From a virus, in IMG/VR virus record IMGVR_UViG_3300017989_000003, positions 1 through 64,000 of that record: DNA of 64,000 nt, one strand, 5' to 3'. The notes beneath the pieces are model-generated. The model was not told where the DNA came from. It searched no databases and worked only from the letters and a program-made list of their open reading frames with translations. Positions 6,410-44,254 of this stretch are shown here, one piece after another (the stretch's first letter is position 1; every line of letters starts with the position of its first letter). The position numbers and the translations under genes were made by a program.

Positions 6410-6462
6410 AAATAACATGCGTTATTCAGTGGCTTCTTAATAATGAATTATAGGAGGTGATA

Positions 6463-8586
6463 ATGCCTAAGATAGACCCAGGCGTATACACCGAGACTCG
6501 AGATGAGTCTGAGTACGCTAATCTTGGTGGTGCTACTATTTTCGGTGTAGTAGGTACTGCCACAAAAGGTGAGATAAATAAACCTATCCTATGTTACGGG
6601 GAGCAAGACCTAGTTAACAAAGTGGGTTTACCTCTTACTTCTCTTCCAGATTATGCTGTTCAGTCAGCCATACAGTTTTTGCAGAGGGGTCAGATTGTTG
6701 CGTTTCTAAGGGTTGAGAGCGGTCTGACACCAGCTGTAGAGTCATCTGTGACAATAAATGACTATCCTTCTGATTCTTCTCCCACTGTTGACTTCGAGGC
6801 TATCTCTCCTGGAACATGGGGTGATGACCTAAAAGTTCAGATATTGCTTGAAGAAGATGATGAGTATAGTGAGGTTCTTGGTCAAGGAGATGGTATTACT
6901 ACTAATTTCCAATCTATTCCTGTTGCTAATATTAGCTCATTGACTAATTTCCCGGTTCTTCCAGGCACAGTTCAGATAAATGCTATTGTTGGTAGTAACG
7001 TAGTGGTATTTACTGACGACGGTCTTGGTAATTTAGCGGGTCCAGCTGTTGGTGATATAGGTACTGTTGATTATGAGACCGGTGACCTTGTGGTAGTTTT
7101 TGGTGGTAGTGGTGCACCTGATAACCTCACTGACATTACGGCTACATATCGTTCAGTACAGTACAACGAGACGTTTACTGCTACAGGTGGTGCTACAGTC
7201 CAATGGGACGAAACTCTTGCTGGAAATCCTGTCTTATCGTATGAAAATACCAACTTAATACAGCCTAACACTGTTTACGTGATGGGGAGTGATGGTGCTG
7301 GTGGTATGACTACGATAGGTGTCGACAATGGCGCTGGAGCGATAACTGGAACTAACATTGCTGCTGGAACCATTGATTACGTCACAGGAGCTATTTCAAT
7401 AACACTATTTCCAGCAGCTGCGTCACAACTTGTTGTATGCTACAGAGACCCGTATTTTGATGTGGCAATTCAAGCACTAGCTGATAGGTACGGCGCTGTT
7501 GCTGAAGTTGAAAAGTTTGAAGATGTCGTTATGGACTCTAATTCCGAAAGGTATATAGAGGACGTAATAAACGACGGTATTTCTGGAGAGATAGCTAAGT
7601 CAGCTTATGTGACAGCTACTGTTCCGTTAGTACCATCTGGGTATCAACCTATGTCTGGATTGTATGATTTAGCGGGTGGTGGCGATGGCACAGCTGGTAT
7701 CGCTGATGCGGATTACATTGGCACGTATGCTGGTGGTTCTGCAAGTGGACTTCAGGTTATGGCTAATCCTGAATCTGTAGTTATCGACTTATTGGCAGTT
7801 CCTGGAGTGTCGAGCGGCTCGGTTGTAAATGCAGGATTAGCTGTGTGTGCTGACAGAAAAGACGCTATGTTTATAGTAGACCCACCGTTTGGTTTAACTA
7901 CTACTGACGTTGCGAATTGGCACAATGGTATTGGGTATTCCCATGCTGCGTTTAACAATGAATACGGTATATTGGATTGGGCGTGGATAAAACGTTATGA
8001 TGCGTATAACCGTATGGATGTATGGCTTCCACCTTCGGGTTTTGCCGCTGCACAGATGGCGTACACTGATGAAGTTTCTTACCCATGGAATGCTCCAGCT
8101 GGTAGAAACAGAGGTGTGTTACGTGACGCTCAGGAAGTGGAATACTCTCCTACAAGAGCAGAGCGTATTATTCTGTATGGGCATCCAAACGCGATTAATT
8201 CGATTGTGGATTTCCAGAACACTGGAATTGTCATTTGGGGACAAAAAACACTTTATAGACGTAATACTGCGCGAAACCGCGTGAATGTTATGCGTATGAT
8301 GTGTTACATCCAAAGAAGTGTGGTCTCATCGTGTGAATATTTGACTTTCGAACAGAATGACGCTTTTCTGTGGGCTAGATTTAAGGCGCTTGTTGACCCT
8401 ATATTCTCTAGTATCAAATCGTCTGGTGGTTTAGAAGATTACACAATTATTTGTGATGAGTCTACTAATCCTCCTGCGGTTAGAGACCAGCTTGAAATGC
8501 ACGCAAGGGTCATACTTGTGCCGTTAAAGACTGCTGAGAAGATAGTCATTGAGTTTGTTCTTGAAGGTGCCGGCGCATCAGTTTAA
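6463..8586 (+). CDS. Contractile tail sheath protein with two inserted beta domains
   Basis: 707 residues; ATG 6463 follows a near-perfect Shine-Dalgarno AGGAGGTGA (6452-6460). The N-terminus PKIDPGVYTETRDES and GGATIFGVVGTATKGEINKP are classic sheath motifs. The C-terminal half shows the conserved sheath core (WAWIKRYDAYNRMDVWLPPS, then GRNRGVLRDAQEVEY, NSIVDFQNTGIVIWGQKTL and YIQRSV). Between them, residues about 140-330 hold two copies of a domain with a DDGxG...GTxDYxTG signature that also fills the baseplate proteins downstream. It polymerises around the tube and contracts on infection. Five tube paralogues follow. Confidence 0.95.
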   Translation: MPKIDPGVYTETRDESEYANLGGATIFGVVGTATKGEINKPILCYGEQDLVNKVGLPLTSLPDYAVQSAIQFLQRGQIVAFLRVESGLTPAVESSVTINDYPSDSSPTVDFEAISPGTWGDDLKVQILLEEDDEYSEVLGQGDGITTNFQSIPVANISSLTNFPVLPGTVQINAIVGSNVVVFTDDGLGNLAGPAVGDIGTVDYETGDLVVVFGGSGAPDNLTDITATYRSVQYNETFTATGGATVQWDETLAGNPVLSYENTNLIQPNTVYVMGSDGAGGMTTIGVDNGAGAITGTNIAAGTIDYVTGAISITLFPAAASQLVVCYRDPYFDVAIQALADRYGAVAEVEKFEDVVMDSNSERYIEDVINDGISGEIAKSAYVTATVPLVPSGYQPMSGLYDLAGGGDGTAGIADADYIGTYAGGSASGLQVMANPESVVIDLLAVPGVSSGSVVNAGLAVCADRKDAMFIVDPPFGLTTTDVANWHNGIGYSHAAFNNEYGILDWAWIKRYDAYNRMDVWLPPSGFAAAQMAYTDEVSYPWNAPAGRNRGVLRDAQEVEYSPTRAERIILYGHPNAINSIVDFQNTGIVIWGQKTLYRRNTARNRVNVMRMMCYIQRSVVSSCEYLTFEQNDAFLWARFKALVDPIFSSIKSSGGLEDYTIICDESTNPPAVRDQLEMHARVILVPLKTAEKIVIEFVLEGAGASV

Positions 8587-8600
8587 GAAAGAGGTGATTT

Positions 8601-9245
8601 ATGATGCCAGTTAGACTAGACGCAAGTCACTTAGGTACTTATGGCTCAAAGCAGACATTTGAACCTCAGCGTCAAAACAACTCGTTGTTGTTCTTAACTG
8701 GATTGCCAGCTCTTTTATCTGCTGGTGGTTTTGCAGCTAATCAGGACGCTGAAAGTATTATCGCTCTCAGTATTGATTCTTTCCCTGCTCCGAAGTATTC
8801 GAATAACATAATAGAAGTACCGTACAATAACATGCGAGTTAAATTTGCGGGTTCTATGATGTTCGAAGATATGGACGTGCAGCTTAAGGATTTTGTAGAT
8901 TCTGATACTGCGAAACTGTTACATCAGTGGAGACTGTGCTGCTCTAATCCTGTTAATGGTGCGGTTGGATTTGCGCGCGAATATAAGTTAAATGGAGTCT
9001 TTGTGGCGTTATACCCACCTGATGGACGACCTGATTACTTTAGGTATTTCCAGCTTGATGGTGTATGGCTTTCGAGACTAGACCAGGGTGATATTGACCA
9101 TGCATCTGACGACTATTTACGTATAATTGCCACACTTACGTGTGATAGAATTATACCTCTATTAGCTCTTGATGCTGGCGTTTCCCCAGAGAATGTCGGT
9201 GCTGGTAGTGGTTTTTCCACTCTAACTCCGCCTAAGACTCCATAG
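8601..9245 (+). CDS. Tail tube protein, paralogue 1 (probable main tube)
   Basis: 214 residues; GAGGTG precedes ATG 8601 and ATG 8604, and the second gives the better spacing. Motifs shared with the four following genes: FEPQRQN near residue 22, a DxQLKDFVDSDTAKLLHQW segment near 95, NPVNGAVGFA near 117, and a C-terminal YFQLDGVW...GDIDHASDDYLRI...CDRIIP block. This is the T4 gp19/contractile-tube family fold. Being first after the sheath and the most regular in sequence, it is the best candidate for the major tube subunit; the others may be tube ends or minor tube proteins. Confidence 0.8.
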   Translation: MMPVRLDASHLGTYGSKQTFEPQRQNNSLLFLTGLPALLSAGGFAANQDAESIIALSIDSFPAPKYSNNIIEVPYNNMRVKFAGSMMFEDMDVQLKDFVDSDTAKLLHQWRLCCSNPVNGAVGFAREYKLNGVFVALYPPDGRPDYFRYFQLDGVWLSRLDQGDIDHASDDYLRIIATLTCDRIIPLLALDAGVSPENVGAGSGFSTLTPPKTP

Positions 9246-9306
9246 ATGTATTAATAATGGGGGTTGGTTGACGCCAATCCCCTTATTCTTACTGTTAGGA
9301 ATGTTT

Positions 9307-10035
9307 ATGGGAAAGAAAGAAGTCGGTAAAGTTGGCGCTAAAACAAATTTTCCTCTAGTTGAAAGTCTGTTTTCGGCTAATTTTATTGGCGGCTCAGCGG
9401 TTAACAAACAAGATTATTACGGGTTTGAGCCACAGAGGCGTAATAATGGATTTTTGTTTGTTCCACTTCAAGAACTTAAGGGTATATCGGGATTTCCAGC
9501 ATATTTACCAGGTACTCTTGCGATGGCTCTTAAGAGTGTAGAATTACCGAAAGATGAAAATGAGATTATTGAGCTTGGGTATTTTAACCAAAAAAGGTTT
9601 TATGCTGGGCAACATAGGACACAAGAAATATCTATGGTATTTGTTGACTATGTTGATGTTCCCGTGGCTCACGCTTTAGAGTTTTGGAGAGCGACAGTCT
9701 ATAATGCTGTTAATGGTGCTGTAGGTTGGGCTTCTAGTAGCCCTAAGGCGATTATTCCATCTCTTGCTGGATACAAGCAAGATGTTTTTTTGATGACATT
9801 ATCACCGAATGCTGATTGGGTTTATTCTAAGATTTATATGCTCAAAGGTGCTTTTCCGTCGTCTATAGATAGAGGCGATATTGACTTTGCTGACGAAGAT
9901 ATATTAGAGATGACTTTAACTATCCACTACGACGAAGTTTTTTTGATATCACATGGATGGATACCTGAAATAGCACTTTATTACAATCCAATGACAGCTG
10001 GTGATATAGATATTAAACTTGAAATACCAACATAG
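9307..10035 (+). CDS. Tail tube protein, paralogue 2
   Basis: 242 residues from ATG 9307, which has TAGGA six bases upstream; the frame is open back to a TTG at 9268 but that start has no site. It carries FEPQRRNNGFLFVPL, then LEFWRATVYNAVNGAVGWAS, YSKIYMLKGAFPSSI and GDIDFADEDILEMTLTIHYD. The N-terminus has an extra lysine-rich 15 residues. It is one of five tandem tube-family paralogues, diverged enough to suggest a separate position in the tail. A GGGG/CCCC imperfect hairpin (9259-9282) lies between it and paralogue 1. Confidence 0.7.
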   Translation: MGKKEVGKVGAKTNFPLVESLFSANFIGGSAVNKQDYYGFEPQRRNNGFLFVPLQELKGISGFPAYLPGTLAMALKSVELPKDENEIIELGYFNQKRFYAGQHRTQEISMVFVDYVDVPVAHALEFWRATVYNAVNGAVGWASSSPKAIIPSLAGYKQDVFLMTLSPNADWVYSKIYMLKGAFPSSIDRGDIDFADEDILEMTLTIHYDEVFLISHGWIPEIALYYNPMTAGDIDIKLEIPT

Positions 10036-10042
10036 GCGTATA

Positions 10043-10759
10043 ATGACCTTACCTGTTCCAAGTAGAACACCAACGATGTCAGCTAAATTCTTAGGAAGTG
10101 CTCTAAGATATCGAGATGGTGCGCCTTATGGTGGAACTTTTCAACCTCAGATGTCTTATTTGGGGTTTGTATTATTTAGGTTTGATACATCACTTATATC
10201 AGGTTTTCAGGAGGCTGACAACAAGATAATATTGATGTCACTCGAATCTAGTAGCTTGCCTGAAATTGTAATTAATACGACTACTTTATCCTATAATAAT
10301 GAGCGGCGTAAATACCCTACGTCGGCTGAGTTTCCTGATTTTGAACTTACACTTAGAGATTTTGTGGACATACCAACGGCTAGGATAATTGATAAGTGGT
10401 TGTATCTTATTTACAACGAATATAATGGGGCTATTAATCCAAAGATAGCGTACCGTGTCAATACCTTTGTTTGTCTTATAGACCCTACAGGTAATCTCTC
10501 ACGGTATTATCGTATGATTTGTTTTCCAATAAGTGTAAATTTTGGAAATATTGATGGTAATTCTTCTGATTATGTTAAAATTAATGTAACGCTAGCTATA
10601 GATAAGCTATATCGGGTTCCAGAGGATGAGCTTAAAGACTGGGGTTTATCTGGTGCTGGAACATATCCCAATAGTAGGGATTTTAATTCTCGAAATATTA
10701 CCCAGCCTATAGACCTTGGTAAAAAGTTAAAGGTTGGTTTCAACAAACAGGCGTACTAG
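10043..10759 (+). CDS. Tail tube protein, paralogue 3 (most diverged)
   Basis: 238 residues from ATG 10043, with ATAGGCG upstream. The tube motifs are weaker: FQPQMSYLGFVLF in place of FEPQRQN, LTLRDFVDIPTARIIDKW, NEYNGAINPKIAY, YRMICFPISVNFGNIDGNSS and DYVKINVTLAIDKLYRVP. A C-terminal tail of about 40 residues is unique to this copy. It could be a tube-terminator or baseplate-proximal ring rather than a shaft subunit; this is inference from divergence. Confidence 0.6.
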   Translation: MTLPVPSRTPTMSAKFLGSALRYRDGAPYGGTFQPQMSYLGFVLFRFDTSLISGFQEADNKIILMSLESSSLPEIVINTTTLSYNNERRKYPTSAEFPDFELTLRDFVDIPTARIIDKWLYLIYNEYNGAINPKIAYRVNTFVCLIDPTGNLSRYYRMICFPISVNFGNIDGNSSDYVKINVTLAIDKLYRVPEDELKDWGLSGAGTYPNSRDFNSRNITQPIDLGKKLKVGFNKQAY

Positions 10760-10768
10760 GAGGATTTG

Positions 10769-11395
10769 ATGACTACTCCAAGCAGCATAGAATTTCACGC
10801 AGACTCCTTTATTAAGGAAAGAGAGTTTGAGCCACAGCGTCAGAATAGTGGGTTTTTATATGTTCCATTAATAGATGGGATTGTGATAAATGACCCTAAA
10901 GTGTTGGCGCTAGCCATAGATACGTTGCGTCTTCCGTCTTATGGCACAGAGGATATCCAAGTAGGTTATTTTAATGAATTTGTTAGCTTTGCTGGGAAGT
11001 CTGTGTTTGACGATATTGACATGACTATAAAGGACTTCGTTGATGGTGACGGTATGCTTGCCATAGACAAATGGTTCAACCAAGTGTATAGTCCAGGTAA
11101 TGGTGAGATGGAGATGGCGTATACTATTAAGAAAGATGCATATGCTGTTATATACGACACAGCAGGTGAGAATATGCGGTATTATCTTCTCAAAGGATGT
11201 TTTCCGTCGCATATAGCTCGCGGTGATTTAGACCAGAATACGTCTGACTATGTTAGAATTACAGTAACTTTCTCTGTGGATAGGGTTGTGCCGTGGTTTA
11301 TGGAAGGTAAACTTGGTAGTGGAGCAGCTAAATACCTTCCTGGTGGAACATCACCATTAAATTTAACTGACGCAGTTAGTAAATTAACTAAATAG
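10769..11395 (+). CDS. Tail tube protein, paralogue 4
   Basis: 208 residues; ATG 10769 is preceded by AGGAGG. Shows REFEPQRQNSGFLYVPL near residue 18, DMTIKDFVDGDGMLAIDKW, SPGNGEMEMAYTIK, YYLLKGCFPSHIARGDLDQN and DYVRITVTFSVDRVVPWF. Together with paralogues 1 and 5 it retains the full signature set of the tube family. Spacing to paralogue 5 is 7 nt, so the group is probably co-translated. Confidence 0.7.
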   Translation: MTTPSSIEFHADSFIKEREFEPQRQNSGFLYVPLIDGIVINDPKVLALAIDTLRLPSYGTEDIQVGYFNEFVSFAGKSVFDDIDMTIKDFVDGDGMLAIDKWFNQVYSPGNGEMEMAYTIKKDAYAVIYDTAGENMRYYLLKGCFPSHIARGDLDQNTSDYVRITVTFSVDRVVPWFMEGKLGSGAAKYLPGGTSPLNLTDAVSKLTK

Positions 11396-11402
11396 GTGTA
11401 GT

Positions 11403-12026
11403 ATGACGATACCATTAAGTGCTGATTTTCTCGGCAAGTATTCAACAACTGGTAAAGTAACACGAGAACCACAGCGTACTAGTGTTGGCACAATATACGT
11501 TAATTTTAACGTATCTGTCATGAACTTTAGCGAGATTATACGTTCGAGTTTATCTAATCCAGAGATTATGTTGGCTATGTCTATAGATTCATGTAATCTC
11601 CCAGGCTACGGCGTTGAAGTCATAACAATGGGGTGGTTTCTTGAGACTGTTAAGTTTCCAGGAAAGGCTATTGTTGATGATACTAACTGGGTACTTCGAG
11701 ACTTTGTTACAAGTGACGTGGCTGATATTTTAGATGCGTGGTGGGCTATGACGTTTAACCCATTAAGTGGCGCTGCGCATAAAGCGGCTAAGTACAAACA
11801 ATACGCATATGTTATGTTGTTTGGAACGGATGGCGAGATTGATAGTAATCGATGGTATAGGCTAGAAGGTTGCTATCCGTCTAGAATTGAGCGAGGGGAT
11901 ATTGACCATACTGGTGGAGACTACGTTAGGATAACCGTGTCGTTAAAAGCCGACAGGGTTGTTCCTTTAGTATTTGAACGTACTGGTGCTGACGTTGAGA
12001 GGGGTTTACCAACCCCAACTAAGTAA
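11403..12026 (+). CDS. Tail tube protein, paralogue 5
   Basis: 207 residues; ATG 11403 has TAGGTG upstream. Motifs: REPQRTSVGTIYVNF, TNWVLRDFVTSDVADILDAW, NPLSGAAHKAAKY, YRLEGCYPSRIERGDIDHTG and DYVRITVSLKADRVVPL. It ends the five-gene tube array; a 149-nt gap follows before the gp26-like gene. Confidence 0.7.
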   Translation: MTIPLSADFLGKYSTTGKVTREPQRTSVGTIYVNFNVSVMNFSEIIRSSLSNPEIMLAMSIDSCNLPGYGVEVITMGWFLETVKFPGKAIVDDTNWVLRDFVTSDVADILDAWWAMTFNPLSGAAHKAAKYKQYAYVMLFGTDGEIDSNRWYRLEGCYPSRIERGDIDHTGGDYVRITVSLKADRVVPLVFERTGADVERGLPTPTK

Positions 12027-12175: not shown

Positions 12176-13432
12176 ATGACTAAAGGTAGTAGACCTAAGA
12201 AAAGACGTCCTTTATCGAAAGGAAATCCCGAGCAAAGTGTTCCTAAATCATTTCCTACTGTAATAGGTTCTGAGAAGGCTAAAAATATACCTCCAGAGCT
12301 TATGGAGCATCTAACAAACATGGGTGCTTCCAGAGAAAGTTTTGTCCCACCGTCTGCGTCACCAATCCCACCTATTAGGGGTAAAAGACCAAAAGTTAAA
12401 GTGTCTTCGAAAGTTACTGATGTAACAGGTGATGTTCCTGGTAATGTTAGTAACATTACTGACGAAATTCCCGCAAATGATTACGTTGAACAGGATGAGT
12501 ACGACGAGAGCGCAGAAGATGATAATTACGATTATCAATCGCAACCACCTATTCAACAACCACCTATTCAACAACCACCTATTCAACAACCACCTATTCA
12601 ACAACCACCTATTCAACAACCACCTATTCAACAACCACCTATTCAACAACCTGTATCTTACGTGCAGCAGAAACCAGCACATATACGAAGATTTGTTGGG
12701 CAGTTACCGTCAAAAGGTATTCCATATCGCAGCGTAGGTGCTTATGTTGATGGTAGAATAGATATATGCCCTATGACCACGAAGGAGGAGTCGTTATTGT
12801 ATTCTCCTGGTGACTCGTTGGCGCATATCAATAAAATATTGGACAGTTGCATTGTTGATGACGATAAGGCTAAGCTTAGTCCTATTGACTTAACAATAAA
12901 TGACAGATTTGCTGTACTTCTTTATATCCGAACATTTTCTTATGGCTCTGAATACGAAATACCGTTTACGTGTGCTTCATGTAATTACTACAACCCAAAA
13001 ACAATTATAGATATATCGTCTGATTTATCTATGAATTTTATGGACGAGGATGCTGAAGAGCCGTTTGAAGTTGATTTACCACGTTCTGGTGATTACATTC
13101 ATTTTAGGCTATTGCGTGGTAGAGACGAAGAGACTATCGCCAAATACGCCAAAAGACTCAAGATGCAGTCTACTGACGAAGGTGACCCTTCAAATATTTA
13201 CCGTTTGGCGTTATCCATTGTAGGTATTAATGGTATGGAAGTATCTGACTTCGACGCAAAAGTTGAGTACGTTAAGAACATGATTGCTGGTGATGCTAAT
13301 ACGTTGCGTCTAGCAATTCAAAATGCGGATGGTAGAATTGATACTACGTTGTTTATTGATTGTCCTGCGTGTGGTTTTGCGAACAGATTCGAGATGCCAT
13401 TTACTGCTGAATTTTTTCGCCCATCTAGGTAG
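12176..13432 (+). CDS. T4 gp26-like baseplate/tail assembly protein with Zn ribbon and PPIQQ repeats
   Basis: 418 residues; ATG 12176 after GAAAGGAG. Residues 1-120 are basic then acidic and probably disordered. Residues about 124-158 are seven perfect PPIQQ units. From about 180 the sequence matches the T4 baseplate protein family (Pfam T4_baseplate): LPSKGIPYRSVGAY, then ICPMTTKEESLLYSPGDS and LIHINK-like helices. CASCNYYN near 263 and CPACGFANR near 402 form a CxxC pair consistent with one zinc site. Members act during baseplate hub or tape-measure assembly rather than as major structure. The frame ends at TAG 13430-13432 and another frame runs across this stop. Confidence 0.65.
   Translation: MTKGSRPKKRRPLSKGNPEQSVPKSFPTVIGSEKAKNIPPELMEHLTNMGASRESFVPPSASPIPPIRGKRPKVKVSSKVTDVTGDVPGNVSNITDEIPANDYVEQDEYDESAEDDNYDYQSQPPIQQPPIQQPPIQQPPIQQPPIQQPPIQQPPIQQPVSYVQQKPAHIRRFVGQLPSKGIPYRSVGAYVDGRIDICPMTTKEESLLYSPGDSLAHINKILDSCIVDDDKAKLSPIDLTINDRFAVLLYIRTFSYGSEYEIPFTCASCNYYNPKTIIDISSDLSMNFMDEDAEEPFEVDLPRSGDYIHFRLLRGRDEETIAKYAKRLKMQSTDEGDPSNIYRLALSIVGINGMEVSDFDAKVEYVKNMIAGDANTLRLAIQNADGRIDTTLFIDCPACGFANRFEMPFTAEFFRPSR
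12545..12649 (+). repeat. Seven perfect 15-nt tandem repeats (PPIQQ)
   Basis: CCACCTATTCAACAA is repeated seven times with no base change, encoding seven PPIQQ units inside the gp26-like gene. Identity at synonymous positions points to recent slippage or unequal-recombination expansion, so the copy number may vary between relatives. It lies in a low-complexity linker between a charged N-terminus and the folded domain. Confidence 0.95.
13412..13418 (+). promoter_or_regulatory. Possible +1 (or -2) frameshift site
   Basis: TTT TTT C is read in the gp26-like frame just before CGC CCA TCT AGG TAG. A +1 slip of the phenylalanine tRNA from TTT to TTC moves the ribosome into the overlapping frame, which is open across the stop to 13640. 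No good start codon with a ribosome site exists for that second frame. This is a hypothesis from the sequence arrangement. Confidence 0.3.
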
Positions 13433-13726: not shown

Positions 13727-16700
13727 ATGGCTGACATAATATCGCTATCATTAAAGCTAGACGCAGTAGACGCACTAAAATCAATACAGTCTTTTACAAA
13801 GACGATAGAAGATGCAGCTAAATCATGGGATAAGGCTATTGACAAAGCTAGTAAAAATATCGACGAAAAGTTATCAGAAATGACGGACTCTATAAGCAGT
13901 TTATCGAAGGAGATTGACGTAAGTGTCGCAGTAGGGGAAATTAAGGTCGATGATAGTTTTGATAAAGCTCTTGAGTCATTCTATAAAAATGTAAAAAACC
14001 AAATACAACAAAAAGTTAAAACGGTATCTGCTGATATAACTACACCGTTAAAAGTTAGGGTGTCTTCATTATCAGGTAATATCGAGGATGTTATCGTGAG
14101 TGAAGTAGCTGATGCTGTCGCATTAGGAGTACGGAAAGCTCCGATTGGTGGTATTGGGATAGGTAATGCTGCACAGGAGTTAACTACTCTGTTGTTGGTT
14201 ACGTTACCTAGCGTCATAAACAAAGCGGTTTCTAATATAGGAAGCGAGATAGCTAATAGTATTAAGCCTATCACTGATGCTGTGTCAAATTTGCCTAAAG
14301 ACCTAAGTGTAACATTAGATTTATCTTCATCGATGGCGTCGATAAGGGACGAAATACAGCGTGAGCCCATAGACACTTATTTACGGGTGGTATCTGTTAC
14401 AACAACTAGTGATTTTACGCCTAGTGGAACTAAAGGCGCTGGCACTGGTGAGGGGGCTAGAATTAAAATCCCAGCGGCACTTAAAGTAGTAACTATAGTG
14501 GGTTCACCTATAACTGTTGATGCTAAACTTAACATAAAGGGTTATAATCCTAAGACTCTGAATATTGACGTAAAAGCTGCGGTGGATTTAAAATTATCTA
14601 ATGTAAATGATTTAGATGCGTTTGTTAAGAGTATTCAGGATAGCTTAACTGTTCAGTTGGTTGTGGATGGGTTTATCCCTGCCTCTGGTAAAACGTGGGA
14701 AGATTTTGCTGGCGAGATATCCAAAAAGTTACCAATATACCCATTAATTAAAGGTTTCGTAGAGGAATGGACGGAGTCAGATTTACCTAAAGTTCCAGAA
14801 TTACATGCCTGTATAAAAACTATTGATTTACGTCCTGACTTTAAGGCTCCAAAGGTAGATGAATACCTGAATGAGCTAAAGGCTAGTATTAAAAAGTTTG
14901 ATGTGACTAAGACAGTGATTAAAAAACTTACGTCTGATATATCTGATAGTCCAGATTTTGCTCCAACTATTAAGGATATAAAATTTGACTTAAGTGACGA
15001 CGTATTGTCTAACTTGGAATATGACCTAGAATTTATTATGTCTAATGTGGCTGTGTCACTTGAGCAGGATTTACTGGACGTACTAGGTAAGTTTCAGCTT
15101 AAGCTTATCGACCATGTAGTTGAAGGTATAGATTTAATGTCTAAGGAGATTGATGCTGTATTACAGAAAGAGCGTCATATTCCTACGGTGAAAGCTCAGG
15201 CTGGTGGTGGAGCTTTCACTCCTATAGATATCACTGATACTATAAAGGACGCAGTTACTAACGCCATTAACTCTGTGAGAACTACTAGTAAGGACATAAG
15301 TAAAGCTTCGCTAAAAATAGCGAAGGACGTTACAGACGAAGCTGTCAAAAATATTAGTGGTATTGATGTCGATAGACTTGTTGATGTACCGCATGAGAAG
15401 TTATACAATGCCATGCGTGTTTCTGAGGATGCGATAGTAAAGAGTGGAAAAGCTCATACTGAGTCTATATCTAGAGGATTAGGTAAGGTTGGAGATTTTC
15501 TAAAAGATGTGTTTATATCACCTAAGGTGAAGGATATTATCCGAAAAGGATTATCCACCGAGACACGTATTAAGGATTTGTCTGAAGTTTCAGATACGAT
15601 AGACAATATTGTAAAAGGGCTTTCTGATGAATTTGGGGATACTAAAGAGGCGTTAAGTAGTATTTCAAATAGTATTAAAAAGGCTAACGAGGCGGCTAAA
15701 GATGCTTCTAGCCTCTTTACTAAACCAGAGGATGTTGTAAGCGGTTTTGCTGATGCCTTTAATTTGATGAAGGAGTCTGGTGATTTAATGTCGAAGGAGA
15801 TAGTTAAATTACCAATGACTGATTTTAGTAAGGCGTATGACTCGCTTTTATTGTTGCAGAAAAACATCGATGAGTTTTCCGGCATCCAGGAAAAATTCTC
15901 AGGTATTCCTGAATTTCAATCTCGGATGGAAAAAGCTCAGATTATGATGGGTATGGTTGGAACTAACCTTGCAAATACGATTGAGGCGTTTGTACAAAAT
16001 ATAGAGAGTATCCAGGAAGGTTTGCCATTAGACGCAGATTTGTCAGAAGTAATAGCTTTGGAGTTGGAATCAATAGGCGACAAACTTAGAGACGTGTCCA
16101 TAGTTATTCCAACTGGCGTCGATGCTCCAGCTGTTCGTGATTTTATGGAGAGTCTTGACTACCTGTCGGTGGTGTTACAAAATGCAGGTGATGGCGTAGA
16201 GACTGTTGGGTTACAAGGACTGTCTAAAATAAGCTCGTCTATTAATACAGTGTTAAAGCAACTTGAATACAGTTCTGGGTCAGTTAACGACTATATAGAT
16301 GCAATGAATAGGGCATCTGTATCAGTTGGTGCTGTGCCCCCACAACATCAGGATGTTTTGACAAATACTATAATGTCGATGAAAAATGCGGTAGGCAGTC
16401 TTAAAGCTCTAGGTACTACGTCTGGTATAGTGTCTGGTACTTTTAAGAGTGTAGCTAACATAGTTAAGAGGTCTGGAAAGAAAATTGACTCAGCTTTTGG
16501 TAAATTATTAAAGTCTGGTCTTGGGCTTCTTGGTGGTTTTAGTTTAATACGTACGATGGTTCAAGGAATTGACCGAGAGTATAGAGCGGCGCAATTAGGT
16601 GCTGCTGGCGGTATGTACCAGCCAGGTAAAGAAGCATGGTGGCAGCAATTTAGAGGCGCTGCTATAAAGGGTCTTACCGAAGAAGAAATATCTGAAATGT

Positions 16701-18490
16701 TCGGTACGGCTATGATGCAAAAAATATTTGAAGCTGGGGAGCGTGGTGTGAAGCAAATGGAGTTATACACAAAATTAGCTTCTGAATCTACGCAGGCATG
16801 GAAAGTTTTTGGTGCTACAGCTGAGGGCGTAGGGGTGTTGCTGGGTAAGACTTTGCGGTTTGCTGGTGTGTCTATGCTTGGTTTTACTAAAGTACAAGAA
16901 TATATGACGATGGCTATGCAAAAGGGTAGAATGTCGTTCTTAGATGCTGCGGCTGCTATAGACGTATTTCGAGGAAGACTTGCTATATTAGAGACAATGG
17001 GTGGTGACGCTACTTTAGCTATAGCTGGAATTGAAGATGCGGTTGCTACACTTACTCTAGTTGGTATGGACGCGCAGGATGCCATTCAAACATTGTCTGG
17101 AATGTTCGACATTACAAATGCCCAGAAGTTTGCTGGCGTATTCGGTTTGATGGGTATGAATGTGATGGAGTTCCAGACTTTGTTGCTTAGGGGTGACACG
17201 CAAAAAGCTTTAGATGCGTTAATGACCGGACTTTCGAAATTACCAGCTGAGAGTGTACTGAGGTTTGGTACTATATGGGAGAGAATTACTGGTCTGTCTA
17301 GAGACGCTTTGGAGACAATGTACGCTGCTTCTACTAAGTGGTCTGACATATCTGAAGACATGCGAAAGGCTCAGCAAGAGCAGGAAGCTAGACTTAAGTC
17401 TATGGCTGAGTCGCCGTTTATTAAAATGCTTAACGAACAGATGGATACATTTCAGATGATGGTTAAAGTAACTGGAGGTCGTATTAGAAATGTCTCAGAC
17501 GTATTTATGTTAAGTCTACTACCGTCTCTTAAAAGAATTCTACCTGTAGTTGAATTAATCGCTGAAGGTCTATTTAAGGTTGTAAGTGTTGTGGCTTCAT
17601 TTGGTGAGACTCTATCGTATATAGTGCCGACTATTTTAGCTGCTGTGGCTGCTCTAAAGACATTTAGTATTGTTGCGGCAATAGCTCAGTCATTAGTACA
17701 TCCAGTAGCAGCTATAGCCGGTATTGCAGCAGCTGTTGGAGTAGGGGCAGTTGTATTTGGTGCTTTGAAATCTGTCACTCCTGATGAAAAATCTTTGAGA
17801 CGTGTGAGTGAGGAAATGGAGGCTATAAACGCTCAGTATAAAGAACGTAAAAAGTATGAGGGTATGATGCCACCAGCATATGGTGTTGGAGCAACTAGAC
17901 GCCAAGAATGGCGAATGAGTAATGAGACGTACCGCTTTGAAGGTGCTGTTCCAGGTTACCAAAAAGGTGTGGCGGGTATTGTTTCATCTCCTGCTATGGT
18001 TGGAGAAAAAGGCAAAGAACTTGTTATAGCAGCTCCTGTAAGTAAAATGAATGCGCCGGGTATGCAAGATGTGACTAGTATTTTTGGAAAACAAACGGAC
18101 TATTCTAATGTACTTACTAAAATTAACGATAATGTCGGCAGTATAAGTAGAAAGTTAAATGATGTAACAGCATCCACCATGAAAATGGTGGATAATGCTC
18201 AGATGGAAGTTGAGCGAGATAGAATTAGGAAAATAAAGGAGGAAGACTTTAGACCTTTACGAAAAGTTCCTATTATAGAAAAAGAATTACTCCAAACACA
18301 GGGTAATGGCGGGTTAGAGTCAAAGTCTGAATTAACGGATGAACTTATTGTTTCTAACAATAGACTTTCTACTTTAATCCAAAGAATGATTACTGTTCTT
18401 ACCGACATTAAGGATAATACTGAAGTAACTTCGAAGAATACGCGTAAAACGCGGGATGTAAGCTTATTTCACAGTAAAGAAGGTGTATAA
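13727..18490 (+). CDS. Tail tape measure protein
   Basis: 1587 residues; ATG 13727 follows GAGGACG. The sequence is long and mostly helical with heptad-like stretches throughout and no cysteine-rich or catalytic region. Residues about 1268-1350 are hydrophobic and glycine/alanine-rich (VVELIAEGLFKVVSVVASF, then IAGIAAAVGVGAVVFGAL), as expected for the membrane-active segment of tape measures. The C-terminal 150 residues are again charged and coiled. Tape measures set tail length at about 0.15 nm per residue, which would predict a tail near 240 nm. It is preceded by its probable assembly factors and followed by tail-junction and baseplate genes. Confidence 0.9.
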   Translation: MADIISLSLKLDAVDALKSIQSFTKTIEDAAKSWDKAIDKASKNIDEKLSEMTDSISSLSKEIDVSVAVGEIKVDDSFDKALESFYKNVKNQIQQKVKTVSADITTPLKVRVSSLSGNIEDVIVSEVADAVALGVRKAPIGGIGIGNAAQELTTLLLVTLPSVINKAVSNIGSEIANSIKPITDAVSNLPKDLSVTLDLSSSMASIRDEIQREPIDTYLRVVSVTTTSDFTPSGTKGAGTGEGARIKIPAALKVVTIVGSPITVDAKLNIKGYNPKTLNIDVKAAVDLKLSNVNDLDAFVKSIQDSLTVQLVVDGFIPASGKTWEDFAGEISKKLPIYPLIKGFVEEWTESDLPKVPELHACIKTIDLRPDFKAPKVDEYLNELKASIKKFDVTKTVIKKLTSDISDSPDFAPTIKDIKFDLSDDVLSNLEYDLEFIMSNVAVSLEQDLLDVLGKFQLKLIDHVVEGIDLMSKEIDAVLQKERHIPTVKAQAGGGAFTPIDITDTIKDAVTNAINSVRTTSKDISKASLKIAKDVTDEAVKNISGIDVDRLVDVPHEKLYNAMRVSEDAIVKSGKAHTESISRGLGKVGDFLKDVFISPKVKDIIRKGLSTETRIKDLSEVSDTIDNIVKGLSDEFGDTKEALSSISNSIKKANEAAKDASSLFTKPEDVVSGFADAFNLMKESGDLMSKEIVKLPMTDFSKAYDSLLLLQKNIDEFSGIQEKFSGIPEFQSRMEKAQIMMGMVGTNLANTIEAFVQNIESIQEGLPLDADLSEVIALELESIGDKLRDVSIVIPTGVDAPAVRDFMESLDYLSVVLQNAGDGVETVGLQGLSKISSSINTVLKQLEYSSGSVNDYIDAMNRASVSVGAVPPQHQDVLTNTIMSMKNAVGSLKALGTTSGIVSGTFKSVANIVKRSGKKIDSAFGKLLKSGLGLLGGFSLIRTMVQGIDREYRAAQLGAAGGMYQPGKEAWWQQFRGAAIKGLTEEEISEMFGTAMMQKIFEAGERGVKQMELYTKLASESTQAWKVFGATAEGVGVLLGKTLRFAGVSMLGFTKVQEYMTMAMQKGRMSFLDAAAAIDVFRGRLAILETMGGDATLAIAGIEDAVATLTLVGMDAQDAIQTLSGMFDITNAQKFAGVFGLMGMNVMEFQTLLLRGDTQKALDALMTGLSKLPAESVLRFGTIWERITGLSRDALETMYAASTKWSDISEDMRKAQQEQEARLKSMAESPFIKMLNEQMDTFQMMVKVTGGRIRNVSDVFMLSLLPSLKRILPVVELIAEGLFKVVSVVASFGETLSYIVPTILAAVAALKTFSIVAAIAQSLVHPVAAIAGIAAAVGVGAVVFGALKSVTPDEKSLRRVSEEMEAINAQYKERKKYEGMMPPAYGVGATRRQEWRMSNETYRFEGAVPGYQKGVAGIVSSPAMVGEKGKELVIAAPVSKMNAPGMQDVTSIFGKQTDYSNVLTKINDNVGSISRKLNDVTASTMKMVDNAQMEVERDRIRKIKEEDFRPLRKVPIIEKELLQTQGNGGLESKSELTDELIVSNNRLSTLIQRMITVLTDIKDNTEVTSKNTRKTRDVSLFHSKEGV

Positions 18491-19221
18491 TGACAGTATC
18501 TGAAAAACCAATAAGTCCTGTAACGTATAGGACTCCTAAAGATAAAGGGTTGCCTGTTGGGTATTTGGTGATAGACCCTCTTGGAGCTAATTACAAGGAG
18601 TATAAGAGGATAGCTGACTTAAGTAACTATCCTATACAATATCCTTTGTACTTGCAGTTTCTGGATTTTGAGTATGGAATCCAAGATAATGTTATACATA
18701 ACTACGATGATGTAGCCCCTTATATGCGGTCTGAACGACACAAATTCTATTCTGGCTCTCAGAACGTACAACTTGAGGTTATGGTCAGATTTTTTTCTAC
18801 ATGGAACGCCAAGGCAGAGGTTCATGCTAGTTATGAGTATCTACTAGCATTACAATACCCGTGGATTGACCCCCAAGGTGGATATAAATATGTTCCTCCA
18901 AAGTTGATTTTTGTTGCTAATTGGAGTATTCGAAGAACTGGGTATATTACAGCGATGAATACGACGTGGTTTAATCCTGTTGGATACGAACAGGAAGTGT
19001 ATATGACTCCAAGTACTAAGTACGGTGAACGGCAATATGCGGTTGTTAATTTTTATGCGGAAATGCTACTTACTTTCACGGTAGTTGGTAGCACAGTGTA
19101 CAATGGTAGCTTTAGGGATATTCCGTCAGCAAATACTAAGTTTGACAATTATAACAGGGCGTTACCTAATCTTGCAACTATGCCGTATCCATATGCTACA
19201 CCGCCTGGTTACCATTCATAG
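18490..19221 (+). CDS. Probable baseplate/tail-tube junction protein
   Basis: 243 residues; ATG 18490 overlaps the tape-measure stop by one base. A central segment (YLLALQYPWIDPQGG, YVPPKLIFVANWSIRRTGYI, TTWFNPVGYEQEVYM, then a long strand with VNFYAEMLLTFTV) follows the layout seen in tube-initiator or junction proteins such as T4 gp48/gp54: a YP box, a PP-strand, a G-turn and a strand ending in a V-x-F motif. The N-terminal half is unlike known families. Location between tape measure and gp53-like gene agrees. Family membership is inferred, not certain. Confidence 0.45.
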   Translation: MTVSEKPISPVTYRTPKDKGLPVGYLVIDPLGANYKEYKRIADLSNYPIQYPLYLQFLDFEYGIQDNVIHNYDDVAPYMRSERHKFYSGSQNVQLEVMVRFFSTWNAKAEVHASYEYLLALQYPWIDPQGGYKYVPPKLIFVANWSIRRTGYITAMNTTWFNPVGYEQEVYMTPSTKYGERQYAVVNFYAEMLLTFTVVGSTVYNGSFRDIPSANTKFDNYNRALPNLATMPYPYATPPGYHS

Positions 19222-19230
19222 GAGAGAGAG

Positions 19231-19554
19231 ATGCTATCACGTAGTTCAAGATATATTGATACTGAAATTCTTAGATATGACTCTAAGGACTGTTTTGATT
19301 TGTGGAAGCGTGTGTCTGAAATCTTACATAGCGATGATTCATTAAATTTTCTTGAGCATACAGTTAATTCACCTGAAGTTGGGTGTTTGGACTTAATCGC
19401 TGATAGGTATTATAACAATGAGAGGCTGTGGTGGTTTATCGCTGCGTTTAATAACATAATCGACCCTGTTGCGGATATGTATCCTGGACAGACTCTAAAA
19501 ATACCGTCTTTGCTGTTTATTCAATCTTTTATAGCGAGAAGTCAGAATGGGTGA
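19231..19554 (+). CDS. gp53-like baseplate wedge protein with LysM-like motif
   Basis: 107 residues; ATG 19231 after AGGAGAGAG. The C-terminal half holds the LysM/gp53 signature: LDLIADRYYNNERLWWFIAA, then FNNIIDPVADMYPGQTLKIP. In T4, gp53 is a wedge component that helps join wedges; small LysM-type baseplate proteins do the same in other myophages. Its last 8 nt overlap the start of the hub gene, suggesting translational coupling. Confidence 0.8.
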   Translation: MLSRSSRYIDTEILRYDSKDCFDLWKRVSEILHSDDSLNFLEHTVNSPEVGCLDLIADRYYNNERLWWFIAAFNNIIDPVADMYPGQTLKIPSLLFIQSFIARSQNG

Positions 19555-26300: not shown

Positions 26301-26610
26301 CGTAATAAGTCAACTTATGTACTATCCTGTAACGGGTGGTACTGTAAGATTAGAATTTGGAGATTTGCTTATTGTAGATGACGGTGCGGGTAATCTTGTG
26401 TCAAATCAAGTTTCGGGTTCGATAGATTATGATACTGGTGCCCTAAAATTTGATTTTAATAATGACACATTATCTATACCACCACCTATTGACGGTGAGT
26501 CTCTTTTAGCTACGTATAATTATACATATAAGGCTAATTTTGTGCCTTTGGTGAAAGGAAGTGTGACTGACAAGATGGGTTATTGTCCTGATTGGGACTG
26601 TCCAGATTAA
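23332..26610 (+). CDS. gp6/J-like baseplate wedge protein with repeated beta domains
   Basis: 1092 residues; ATG 23332. The N-terminus (LDYTARDFDSIKISLENYV, then ESNLGVLLIDFNAYVGDIVS, ISEEVFPVTAKRRNSLIKYA) and GNGVHGLIPASG with GGEDPETIEHIKQWLPGW identify the baseplate J/gp6 family. From about residue 364 to 690 three copies of the DDGxG...DYxTG domain interrupt the usual order; the rest of the J core (VNVESG-type strand, DIRIDIQEAIRQLL, ISELYSAIYDVEGV-like) follows. Two more copies close the C-terminus. The result is much longer than typical gp6. The role is wedge ring formation around the hub. Confidence 0.85.
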   Translation: MTLPTTLDYTARDFDSIKISLENYVRATEPTLWTDFFESNLGVLLIDFNAYVGDIVSFVADRISEEVFPVTAKRRNSLIKYARGVAYSPQGSSPSTVRVVANNDSIPSTFSTQGLLFYAGTVFTVDEVTFELIKDYYFPALTNPVEMDFTSGLSDAETFIADGRQWQEYTVEVDDVINDSWKVFVDGIEWDFVDNLLFYEAERVYEVVYEDDGSITVRFGNGVHGLIPASGLSVEIRYRYGGGISGNIESRSVNTTITGYFDDGSSASISINNPNRASGGEDPETIEHIKQWLPGWIKSNNRAVSVEDYMTLVNKFTDPDYGSPYRANARLRISGFGNIIGGIYLESALMPYVESSSFEIFAVGDGSTTNFTYNTLQKPIVPYTVRITGYLTFGFPPTTVAFEVRDDGRGGLESDYIIGGSVDYDNGIIQVSFRTGNAPVASAGISLYYEFSPVSITGVNRYDYSHLLGIGDGIVTAFSDTIIIPTSLLVPNEDAYLFSSINDFGIRLKTVLDNAGTDIPIDLFDGSLTVPVTQPVGTFTDLTGAPDPNVISSTINYESGFISITFAHPVKLDEGIKIYFTAFNFNWDEGDGISVAFSGYVGEDIVPGTLRVHLVVGTTDIFIRDNLVAGVWSLIVINAATGVSVVTSDIDYDAGYLSFTLSHPPDNLTLVSLAYRTAAEVTDLPYGVMNFVTAIDSTTGGLDNAGVYQWLSDRWNLLVKQGEFDYALPANVVDLWLWSQDTDGYLAFASEGLIDAVRDWLLDYEISTVQLNVESGLLQPFNIDIGTVYYDKQYEVNDIRIDIQEAIRQLLTSDAVYPGEEITVSELYSAIYDVEGVLGFKMLSPTSNISLSKNEMASFGKVERYDTGVKGLPSEQTIGYGDPSIPTLVFSSTLSGVGASNNVIETANSVIVETYVVTPTGIEFSQAKSIVGAVPGVMEFVNTVGNYVDTLAANSYVNVSTGAIQVTYNGGNPPDTDVAVVVTYWTEHFVVISQLMYYPVTGGTVRLEFGDLLIVDDGAGNLVSNQVSGSIDYDTGALKFDFNNDTLSIPPPIDGESLLATYNYTYKANFVPLVKGSVTDKMGYCPDWDCPD

Positions 26611-42901: not shown

Positions 42902-44254
42902 ATGGCAAAATCCAAAAAGCCTTTGAAAAAGGCTAAAAGTAAGTTTGACTTTGGTAGCATAGAGCAGTACCAGGGTGCAGATATGATGCCTGCTCTAAAC
43001 GATGACACTAGCTTTTTTTCAATGAAGGGCAAAAAGAATGCTCAGTTGCGTTTATTGCCAGTTGTTCGGAAGGGTGACGTACTGGTTAAAAAGGTTGGTA
43101 GACACTGGTTCGATTCAAAGCCTTTTACATGTCCTAATATAACTTTCGGAAAACCTTGCTTAGTGTGCGAGCTTCGTAAGTTGTTACCTGACTTGCTTGA
43201 GAGTGCTACTAAAGCTAAACAAAAAATAATTGAAAAGGTCGCAGAAGCTTTGCGTCCTAAAGTCAGGTATTTTATGCGGGTGCTTGACCGAAAAGACATC
43301 GGCACTGGTGTTCAAGTTTATGACGCTCCTTACCAAGTATTTCAGGTAGTATGGGAAGCTGTTAATAATTATAATATCAATGTTGCGCATCCTGAAGAAG
43401 GGTTTGACCTTTTTATTAGCAAAACTGGCAAGAATCGCGATACTAACTACAACTCACATTTTTCTGATAGTCCATCTGTCTTGGCTGATGATTACGACGA
43501 GTTAATCCTTGCAATGGAAAATTCAAAATGGGAGTCTTTATGGGACTTAAAACCTGAATTGCAAGAATTTGCAGAGACATACGCTGAAGAAATCGGGGTT
43601 GACTTTAGGGAACTTGCTGAGACATGTGGTATCGAGCTAGATGCTGATGAATACGATGACGACCTTCCTGATATAGGAGAGGCTGACTCTGATGATGTCG
43701 AAGAGGACGAAGAGGACGAAGAGGACGAAGAGGACGAAGAAGATGACGATGAAGATGATGAGGAAGACGAAGAGGACGAAGAGGACGAAGAGGACGAAGA
43801 TGATGAAGAGGACGAAGATGATGAAGATGATGAAGACGAAGAGGACGAAGAGGACGAAGAGGACGAAGATGAAGATGATGATGATGATGATGAAGAAGAT
43901 GATGAGGAAGACGATGAAGACGAGGTAGTAGAAAGTGCCACTGAAGCAGCAAGAAAAGACAAGGGCGAAGGTAAAGTGGTGAGAAAGAAGAATGGGAAAC
44001 TTTCTTACGTTAAGGCTGAGGATGCCCCTGACGACGCGAAAGCTAAAAAGGCAGTTGTTAAGAAAAAGCCTGCTGTTAGAGCTAAAGGCAAGAGCGGTGG
44101 CTCGAACAAAGGAAGCGCTGTATCTGGTAAGAAAGGCAAATCTGTCGCTAACTCCGCTGTTACTAAAAAGAAATTCGAAAAGAAGGCATCTGCAAAAAAG
44201 AGTACTAAGGCTGGAAAAGCTATTGTCAAAAAAGCAACAAAAAATAAAAAGTAG
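42902..44254 (+). CDS. gp32-like single-stranded DNA-binding protein with acidic and lysine-rich tails
   Basis: 450 residues; ATG 42902 after AGAAGGAG. The core (about 20-240) has the gp32 layout: RLLPVVRKGD strand, then a metal site formed by HWFDSKPFTCPNITFGKPC with C-x-x-C (H, then three Cys), and YDAPYQVFQVVWEAVNN. Residues about 246-345 are nearly all Asp/Glu. T4 gp32 ends in an acidic tail that recruits partners, but here about 105 further residues, rich in Lys and Ala (KAKKAVVKKKP and similar), follow. It coats ssDNA for replication and recombination and opens the operon with RecA and ParB. Confidence 0.75.
   Translation: MAKSKKPLKKAKSKFDFGSIEQYQGADMMPALNDDTSFFSMKGKKNAQLRLLPVVRKGDVLVKKVGRHWFDSKPFTCPNITFGKPCLVCELRKLLPDLLESATKAKQKIIEKVAEALRPKVRYFMRVLDRKDIGTGVQVYDAPYQVFQVVWEAVNNYNINVAHPEEGFDLFISKTGKNRDTNYNSHFSDSPSVLADDYDELILAMENSKWESLWDLKPELQEFAETYAEEIGVDFRELAETCGIELDADEYDDDLPDIGEADSDDVEEDEEDEEDEEDEEDDDEDDEEDEEDEEDEEDEDDEEDEDDEDDEDEEDEEDEEDEDEDDDDDDEEDDEEDDEDEVVESATEAARKDKGEGKVVRKKNGKLSYVKAEDAPDDAKAKKAVVKKKPAVRAKGKSGGSNKGSAVSGKKGKSVANSAVTKKKFEKKASAKKSTKAGKAIVKKATKNKK
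43700..43926 (+). repeat. Low-complexity acidic repeat (GAAGAGGAC units)
   Basis: GAAGAGGAC (Glu-Glu-Asp) and GATGAA/GATGAT variants are repeated across about 225 nt in the gp32-like gene. The near-identical units point to slippage expansion. The antisense frame reads as poly-serine and is an artefact of the repeat. Confidence 0.9.

Follow-up and report, generated by a model that had tools for sequence, protein, structure and literature searches.

Contractile tails are usually viewed as having a single tube protein, to which one or two initiators are added. The locus described here, from a large uncultured tailed bacterial virus, encodes five intact, tandem tube genes of the gp19 type (‘tt1’ to ‘tt5’), and raises the question of why a virus should keep so many, and of what each might do. 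The genes lie in ‘the window’, a stretch of 64,000 nucleotides that forms the first part of a 155-kb (155,386-base) virus record. A search of the entire record finds exactly five tube copies, with no sixth outside the array.

The array and its protein family

The five genes are consecutive, and all on the + strand. They are listed below with the genes that flank them and a hairpin that interrupts them. Comparisons are with L007, a 6.5-kb contig from a clearly different species, the sheath of which is 55% identical to that of the window.

6457..8586, + strand: tail sheath gene, immediately before tt1 (PF17482, PF04984, PHROG 23)
8601..9245, + strand: tt1, probable major tail tube protein (PHROG 4542/45; 56% identity with L007 copy 1)
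9259..9282, + strand: terminator-like hairpin between tt1 and tt2 (10 pairs, the strongest of its region)
about 9307..10035, + strand: tt2, tube paralogue (PHROG 4542, 2e-10; 53% identity with L007 copy 2)
10043..10759, + strand: tt3, fastest-evolving tube paralogue (PHROG 4542, 1e-15; clade with L007 copy 3, 97/86)
10769..11395, + strand: tt4, tube paralogue (PHROG 4542, 1.5e-16; pairs with L007 copy 4, 97/76)
11403..12026, + strand: tt5, tube paralogue (PHROG 4542, 3e-11; clade with L007 copies 5 and 6, 99/97)
12176..13432, + strand: gp26/51-like baseplate gene, found beside the single tube gene in the loci of close relatives (PF12322, PHROG 150, synteny)

The position of tt1, directly after the sheath gene and followed by tt2–tt5, is that of a gp19-type tube gene, and the gaps within the tt2–tt5 block are only 7–10 bases. 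For tt2, the ATG at 9307 is preferred as start over the listed TTG at 9268, because the L007 orthologue starts at the equivalent position and the TTG falls within the hairpin. The proteins are 207–242 aa in length and 28–38% identical to one another, tt4 and tt5 being the most similar pair (38%). Their homology is far above chance (pairwise blastp E-values of 1e-17 to 1e-42), and each of the five matches the PHROG 4542 ‘tail tube’ family (3e-8 to 1e-16). The Pfam family of T4 gp19 (PF06841, Phage_T4_gp19) is detected only in tt4 (1.2e-4) and tt5 (0.04), in both under the Pfam gathering cut-off, and plain annotation would therefore overlook most of the array. tt2 carries a conserved N-arm, an insert of 11–12 aa and a C-terminal extension.

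T4 gp19 is among the best PDB matches of the array, both by sequence and by fold. A combined profile matches T4 gp19 at 1.8e-14, and matches T4 gp54 (0.013) and Pvc1 (E 0.003) weakly. Separate profiles also match gp19 (the tt2 pair at 0.2, tt4/tt5 at 2.8e-6); among the matches listed for these two, none is to gp48 or gp54, and neither profile proved closer to those proteins than to gp19. AF2 models of tt1 (pLDDT 79.7) and tt2 (pLDDT 71.3, with a confident core and low-confidence N- and C-terminal extensions) are both predicted to form the tube β-barrel with its helix and long hairpin. The tt1 model aligns with the KP1 tube and with a chain of the KP1 baseplate cup at a VIA Z of 14.6 each, with the T4 gp19 tube at 14.4 and with tubes of the eCIS at up to 12.9; the core of tt2 aligns with T4, KP1 and eCIS tube proteins at a Z of about 10 (T4 tube, 10.0). 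Fold does not separate tube from initiator here, since for both models the KP1 baseplate chain 9f4a_BQ ties with the tube proteins. The fold is shared, too, by a T4 neck-complex chain (9mkb_AC) and by phiKZ neck chains.

An earlier note on this DNA had proposed five adjacent tail-tube paralogues, and families, the profile match to T4 gp19 and the predicted fold all bear this out. The shared motifs that it listed are real, and no copy has lost the tube motifs, the long hairpin and the helix among them, but some of the listed ones are degenerate: FQPQMSY in tt3, REPQRTS and DFVT in tt5, DYVD and DILEM in tt2, and DGVWLSRL in tt1. The listed motifs belong to the gp19 family as a whole, recurring in relatives with a single copy, and so are nothing special to the array.

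Age and distribution of the array

The array is not an artefact of assembly, because the same DNA is present in contigs from two further metagenomes. One (3300029258) carries the array in full and differs from the window by no more than one mismatch across about 20 kb; the match of the other (3300017987) to the window starts at 10383, within tt3, and runs on from there. L007 has six tandem tube copies in the same slot as in the window. Five are orthologous one-to-one to tt1–tt5, in the same order, and the sixth is an extra duplicate of tt5. In a tree built from 35 tube proteins by maximum likelihood, the array copies of the two species form a single clade (99/97), within which they pair by position (tt1, 100/97; tt2, 100/100; tt3, 97/86; tt4, 97/76; tt5 with copies 5 and 6, 99/97). 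A tree in which the five window copies form a clade of their own is rejected by the AU test (p-AU 5e-6). Since orthologues cluster across species, the duplications predate the split between the window and L007, and the copies have not been homogenized since; recent duplication and gene conversion are thus ruled out.

The copies have also been maintained by selection. In all five window/L007 pairs, identity at codon position 2 (57–78%) far exceeds that at position 3 (33–42%), which indicates purifying selection on each gene, including tt3 (57% versus 33%). Constraint on tt1 and tt2 is about equal to that on the sheath, and on tt3 it is much lower. Judged by these sequence comparisons, the array is real: an ancient, selected expansion in tandem of a tail tube gene of the gp19 type, within a single lineage of large myoviruses. 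The keeping of five distinct tube proteins in order, over such deep divergence, implies a separate task for each.

Other relatives have mostly a single tube gene, and at most two, in the place that the array occupies in this lineage. L022 (a 156-kb contig), L023, L024 and L025 all have the order sheath, single tube, gp26/51-like gene, with LysM and baseplate genes further downstream where the contig extends that far; in L008, the gp26/51-like gene comes at a greater distance downstream. Bacillus phage SP-15 and Listeria phage LIS04 (Thornevirus), which are among the closest isolate matches to the sheath (43 and 40% identity), share the order sheath, tube, terminator, gp26/51-like gene, tape measure, initiator and baseplate, but have only one tube gene. 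Among contigs retrieved through their sheath genes, 44 have one tube-like ORF, 25 have none (many of these being short fragments) and nine have two; no sheath-found contig has more than two, beyond the window's own and L007. L020 has two adjacent tube copies, and L019 two that are separated. No relative turned up when bacterial and archaeal genomes were scanned with the tt4/tt5 profile. Nor did the collections and open-licence PMC literature that we searched contain five or six tandem gp19-type copies in a kept order, together with a separate initiator-like gene; an earlier report elsewhere is possible.

In the contigs with two tube-like ORFs, the second is mostly a protein of ~400 aa with weak tube similarity. 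Loci L106, L107, L112–L116, L121 and L122 have a tube gene followed immediately by such a protein, of ~380–430 aa (E about 1e-5 to 1e-6), possibly another two-tube arrangement. The second gp19-like copy of L019 (13694–14239) comes after an initiator-like gene and directly before the LysM gene, and is a possible extra baseplate ring.

Signals that set tt1 apart

The hairpin at 9259–9282 lies between tt1 and the other four genes. Its fold z-score is -4.8, and none of 200 shuffles is as stable. The counterpart in L007 (1946–1974) is likewise the strongest in its region (z -4.7; 0 of 200 shuffles as stable), and none of the other array copies is followed by a hairpin that compares with it. A rho-independent terminator is annotated by the depositors right after the single tube gene of SP-15, and hairpins occur in the same place in LIS04 and in phage GXN1, although some single-copy relatives lack a terminator there. 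tt1 thus appears to retain an ancestral sheath–tube–terminator layout, with tt2–tt5 lying beyond it. The hairpin probably ends transcription in vivo.

Codon choice points the same way. Among the genes tested, only tt1, besides the sheath gene itself, leans clearly to sheath codons, with a z of +2.5 that is modest, being taken over 206 codons with the sheath alone as reference; values for tt2–tt5 lie between -1.7 and +0.5. Together, hairpin position and sheath-like codons suggest that tt1 is likely the bulk, or major, tube subunit, and that tt2–tt5 are probably lower in dose. Strong Shine–Dalgarno sequences precede the sheath gene (aggaggtgata) and tt4 (aggagg). In a promoter scan of the window, sites were no more frequent than in shuffles, and we claim no promoter for tt2; at this chance level of detection, tt2–tt5 could own a promoter, and need not be low-dose, a point against the low-dose reading to which the excellent ribosome-binding site of tt4 adds.

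What the extra copies might build

The earlier note named tube ends, rings at the baseplate or neck and a mixed tube as options, with no preference among them; the present evidence adds a division into a main subunit, the marks of which are seen in tt1, and minor ones. We think it fairly probable that tt1 builds most of the tube, and that tt2–tt5 are specialized ring proteins of lower dose. tt1 would be transcribed with the sheath as far as the terminator, and hence made in large amounts, while tt2–tt5, past the terminator, would be expressed at lower dose through read-through. The latter would form specialized hexameric rings of the same fold, stacking with tt1 at set positions along the tail and acting like gp48 and gp54 of T4, and Alg5 and Alg7 of the eCIS. 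From the sequences, we infer that all five proteins are present in the virion; that they form stacked hexameric rings in its tail, and where the rings of tt2–tt5 would sit, are suggested by analogy with these systems.

In T4, homologous ring proteins of different type, gp19 with gp48 and gp54, are stacked within one tube, and the genes for gp48 and gp54 are located apart from gene 19. The PDB describes gp54 as the ‘Baseplate tail-tube junction protein’. The array resembles these proteins in its gp19-family fold and sequence signal, and differs in that its five copies are adjacent, and in the tube slot, with an initiator-like gene in addition. The statement in the earlier note that one tube protein is the rule in most contractile phages holds for the gp19-type main tube, but omits homologous rings such as these. 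AlgoCIS has a bulk tube protein, Alg1, and further homologous layers of one β-barrel fold, Alg5 and Alg7, the tube initiators (PMC8894135). The likeness to eCIS (AFP and PVC alike) is in having one bulk tube protein plus homologous extra layers; these systems have two accessory layers, versus four copies and an initiator-like gene in the window, and their similarity in sequence is weak. Bacillus phage G has two side-by-side tube candidates, gp179 and gp180, downstream of its sheath gene (PMC8570332), versus five or six here, the comparison being by description of these proteins. Extra tube-fold rings are, then, of a known kind. For phage 0305phi8-36, a possible precedent, the passages on paralogue families that were covered mention no tube paralogues.

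A gene further downstream, outside the array, probably takes the usual role of initiator:

13727..18490, + strand: tape measure protein of 1587 aa (identified by position and length, with a weak match to the long ORF of L025)
18490..19221, + strand: probable tube initiator, apart from the array (lies after the tape measure gene and before the LysM gene; matches LIS04_73 by profile)
19231..19554, + strand: LysM-type baseplate protein (PHROG 7145, baseplate wedge)

The product of 18490–19221 matches LIS04_73 (E 8e-14, with an hhalign probability of 98), which is annotated as a ‘contractile injection system tube protein’, and groups with its positional equivalents in other loci; the array profile does not match it. 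Two tails of known structure have a single initiator ring beneath the tube: XM1 has one tube protein in 18 uniform rings, plus gp11 as one initiator ring (PMC10457771), and A-1(L) one in 24 uniform rings, plus one initiator ring (PMC10966104). By location, tt2–tt5 are not of the gp48/gp54 type, as they lie between the sheath and gp26/51-like genes, ahead of the tape measure, and the initiator slot is that of 18490–19221.

The tail shaft as a whole might even be a designed composite, with the five or six tube proteins in fixed zones, or in hetero-hexamers, along one tail. We hold this only tentatively, and rather doubt it; if true, a zoned or mixed tube would be seen here for the first time in a contractile tail. 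Several paralogues co-assembling over the full length of the shaft, in hetero-hexamers or in alternating rings, would give an ordered or graded tube. Retention of the tube motifs by all five copies agrees with this, as do the similarity of tt4 to tt5, the highest of any pair, and the strong Shine–Dalgarno of tt4, and hetero-hexamers of the tube-fold protein Hcp exist, going by the title of PDB entry 9vne. We consider it unlikely, however: the terminator that parts tt1 from the rest in both species, and the codon bias, suggest unequal dose, and no myophage with a mixed shaft was found in the literature searched.

Some of the paralogues might act outside the shaft, serving as the tail terminator, as a ring in the neck or as a component of the baseplate, or else helping assembly without being part of the virion. 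The T4 and phiKZ neck chains that share the fold would fit, as would the conserved extensions peculiar to tt2 and the fast evolution of tt3, and the same possibility is raised by the phage G authors for gp179 and gp180 (PMC8570332). This seems to us quite improbable, given that the array occupies the tube slot, and that single-copy relatives possess equivalents of the head-proximal genes 282, 2542 and 4496, so that tail terminator functions are probably already covered. Recent or neutral redundancy, or a recombining reservoir of tube variants for evading tube-sensing defences such as DSR2 (reported to recognize a phage tail tube protein), would suit the extra tt5 copy of L007, but is largely refuted, and very improbable, in view of the grouping of orthologues across species (with no homogenizing gene conversion), the purifying selection on every copy and the kept gene order.

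A major tube protein with specialized, lower-dose rings is thus the reading that we prefer. The array suggests a tube of several specialized ring kinds rather than one, and offers a natural system for studying ring ordering, zoning of the tube along its length and dose set by a terminator. It bears, too, on the question posed by phage G, of why some large phages have more than one tube gene.

Several observations concern other genes of the window. The gp26/51-like gene contains a 15-bp minisatellite, CAACCACCTATTCAA, at 12542–12651 (7.3 perfect copies), which encodes an IQQPP repeat; contig L009, otherwise identical, has one unit fewer, and so the length varies in frame between near-identical strains. 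The motif DDGxGN..GTIDYxTGxIxVxF recurs at 26416, 28190, 28997, 29330 and 30869, in the gp6-like, gp7-like and 30029–31174 proteins, and an insertion in the sheath near 7000–7400 has a stretch that resembles it; it is possibly a shared surface domain of tail proteins. The 42902–44254 protein contains a long Asp/Glu-rich repeat tract (43699–43923), followed by a Lys-rich tail.
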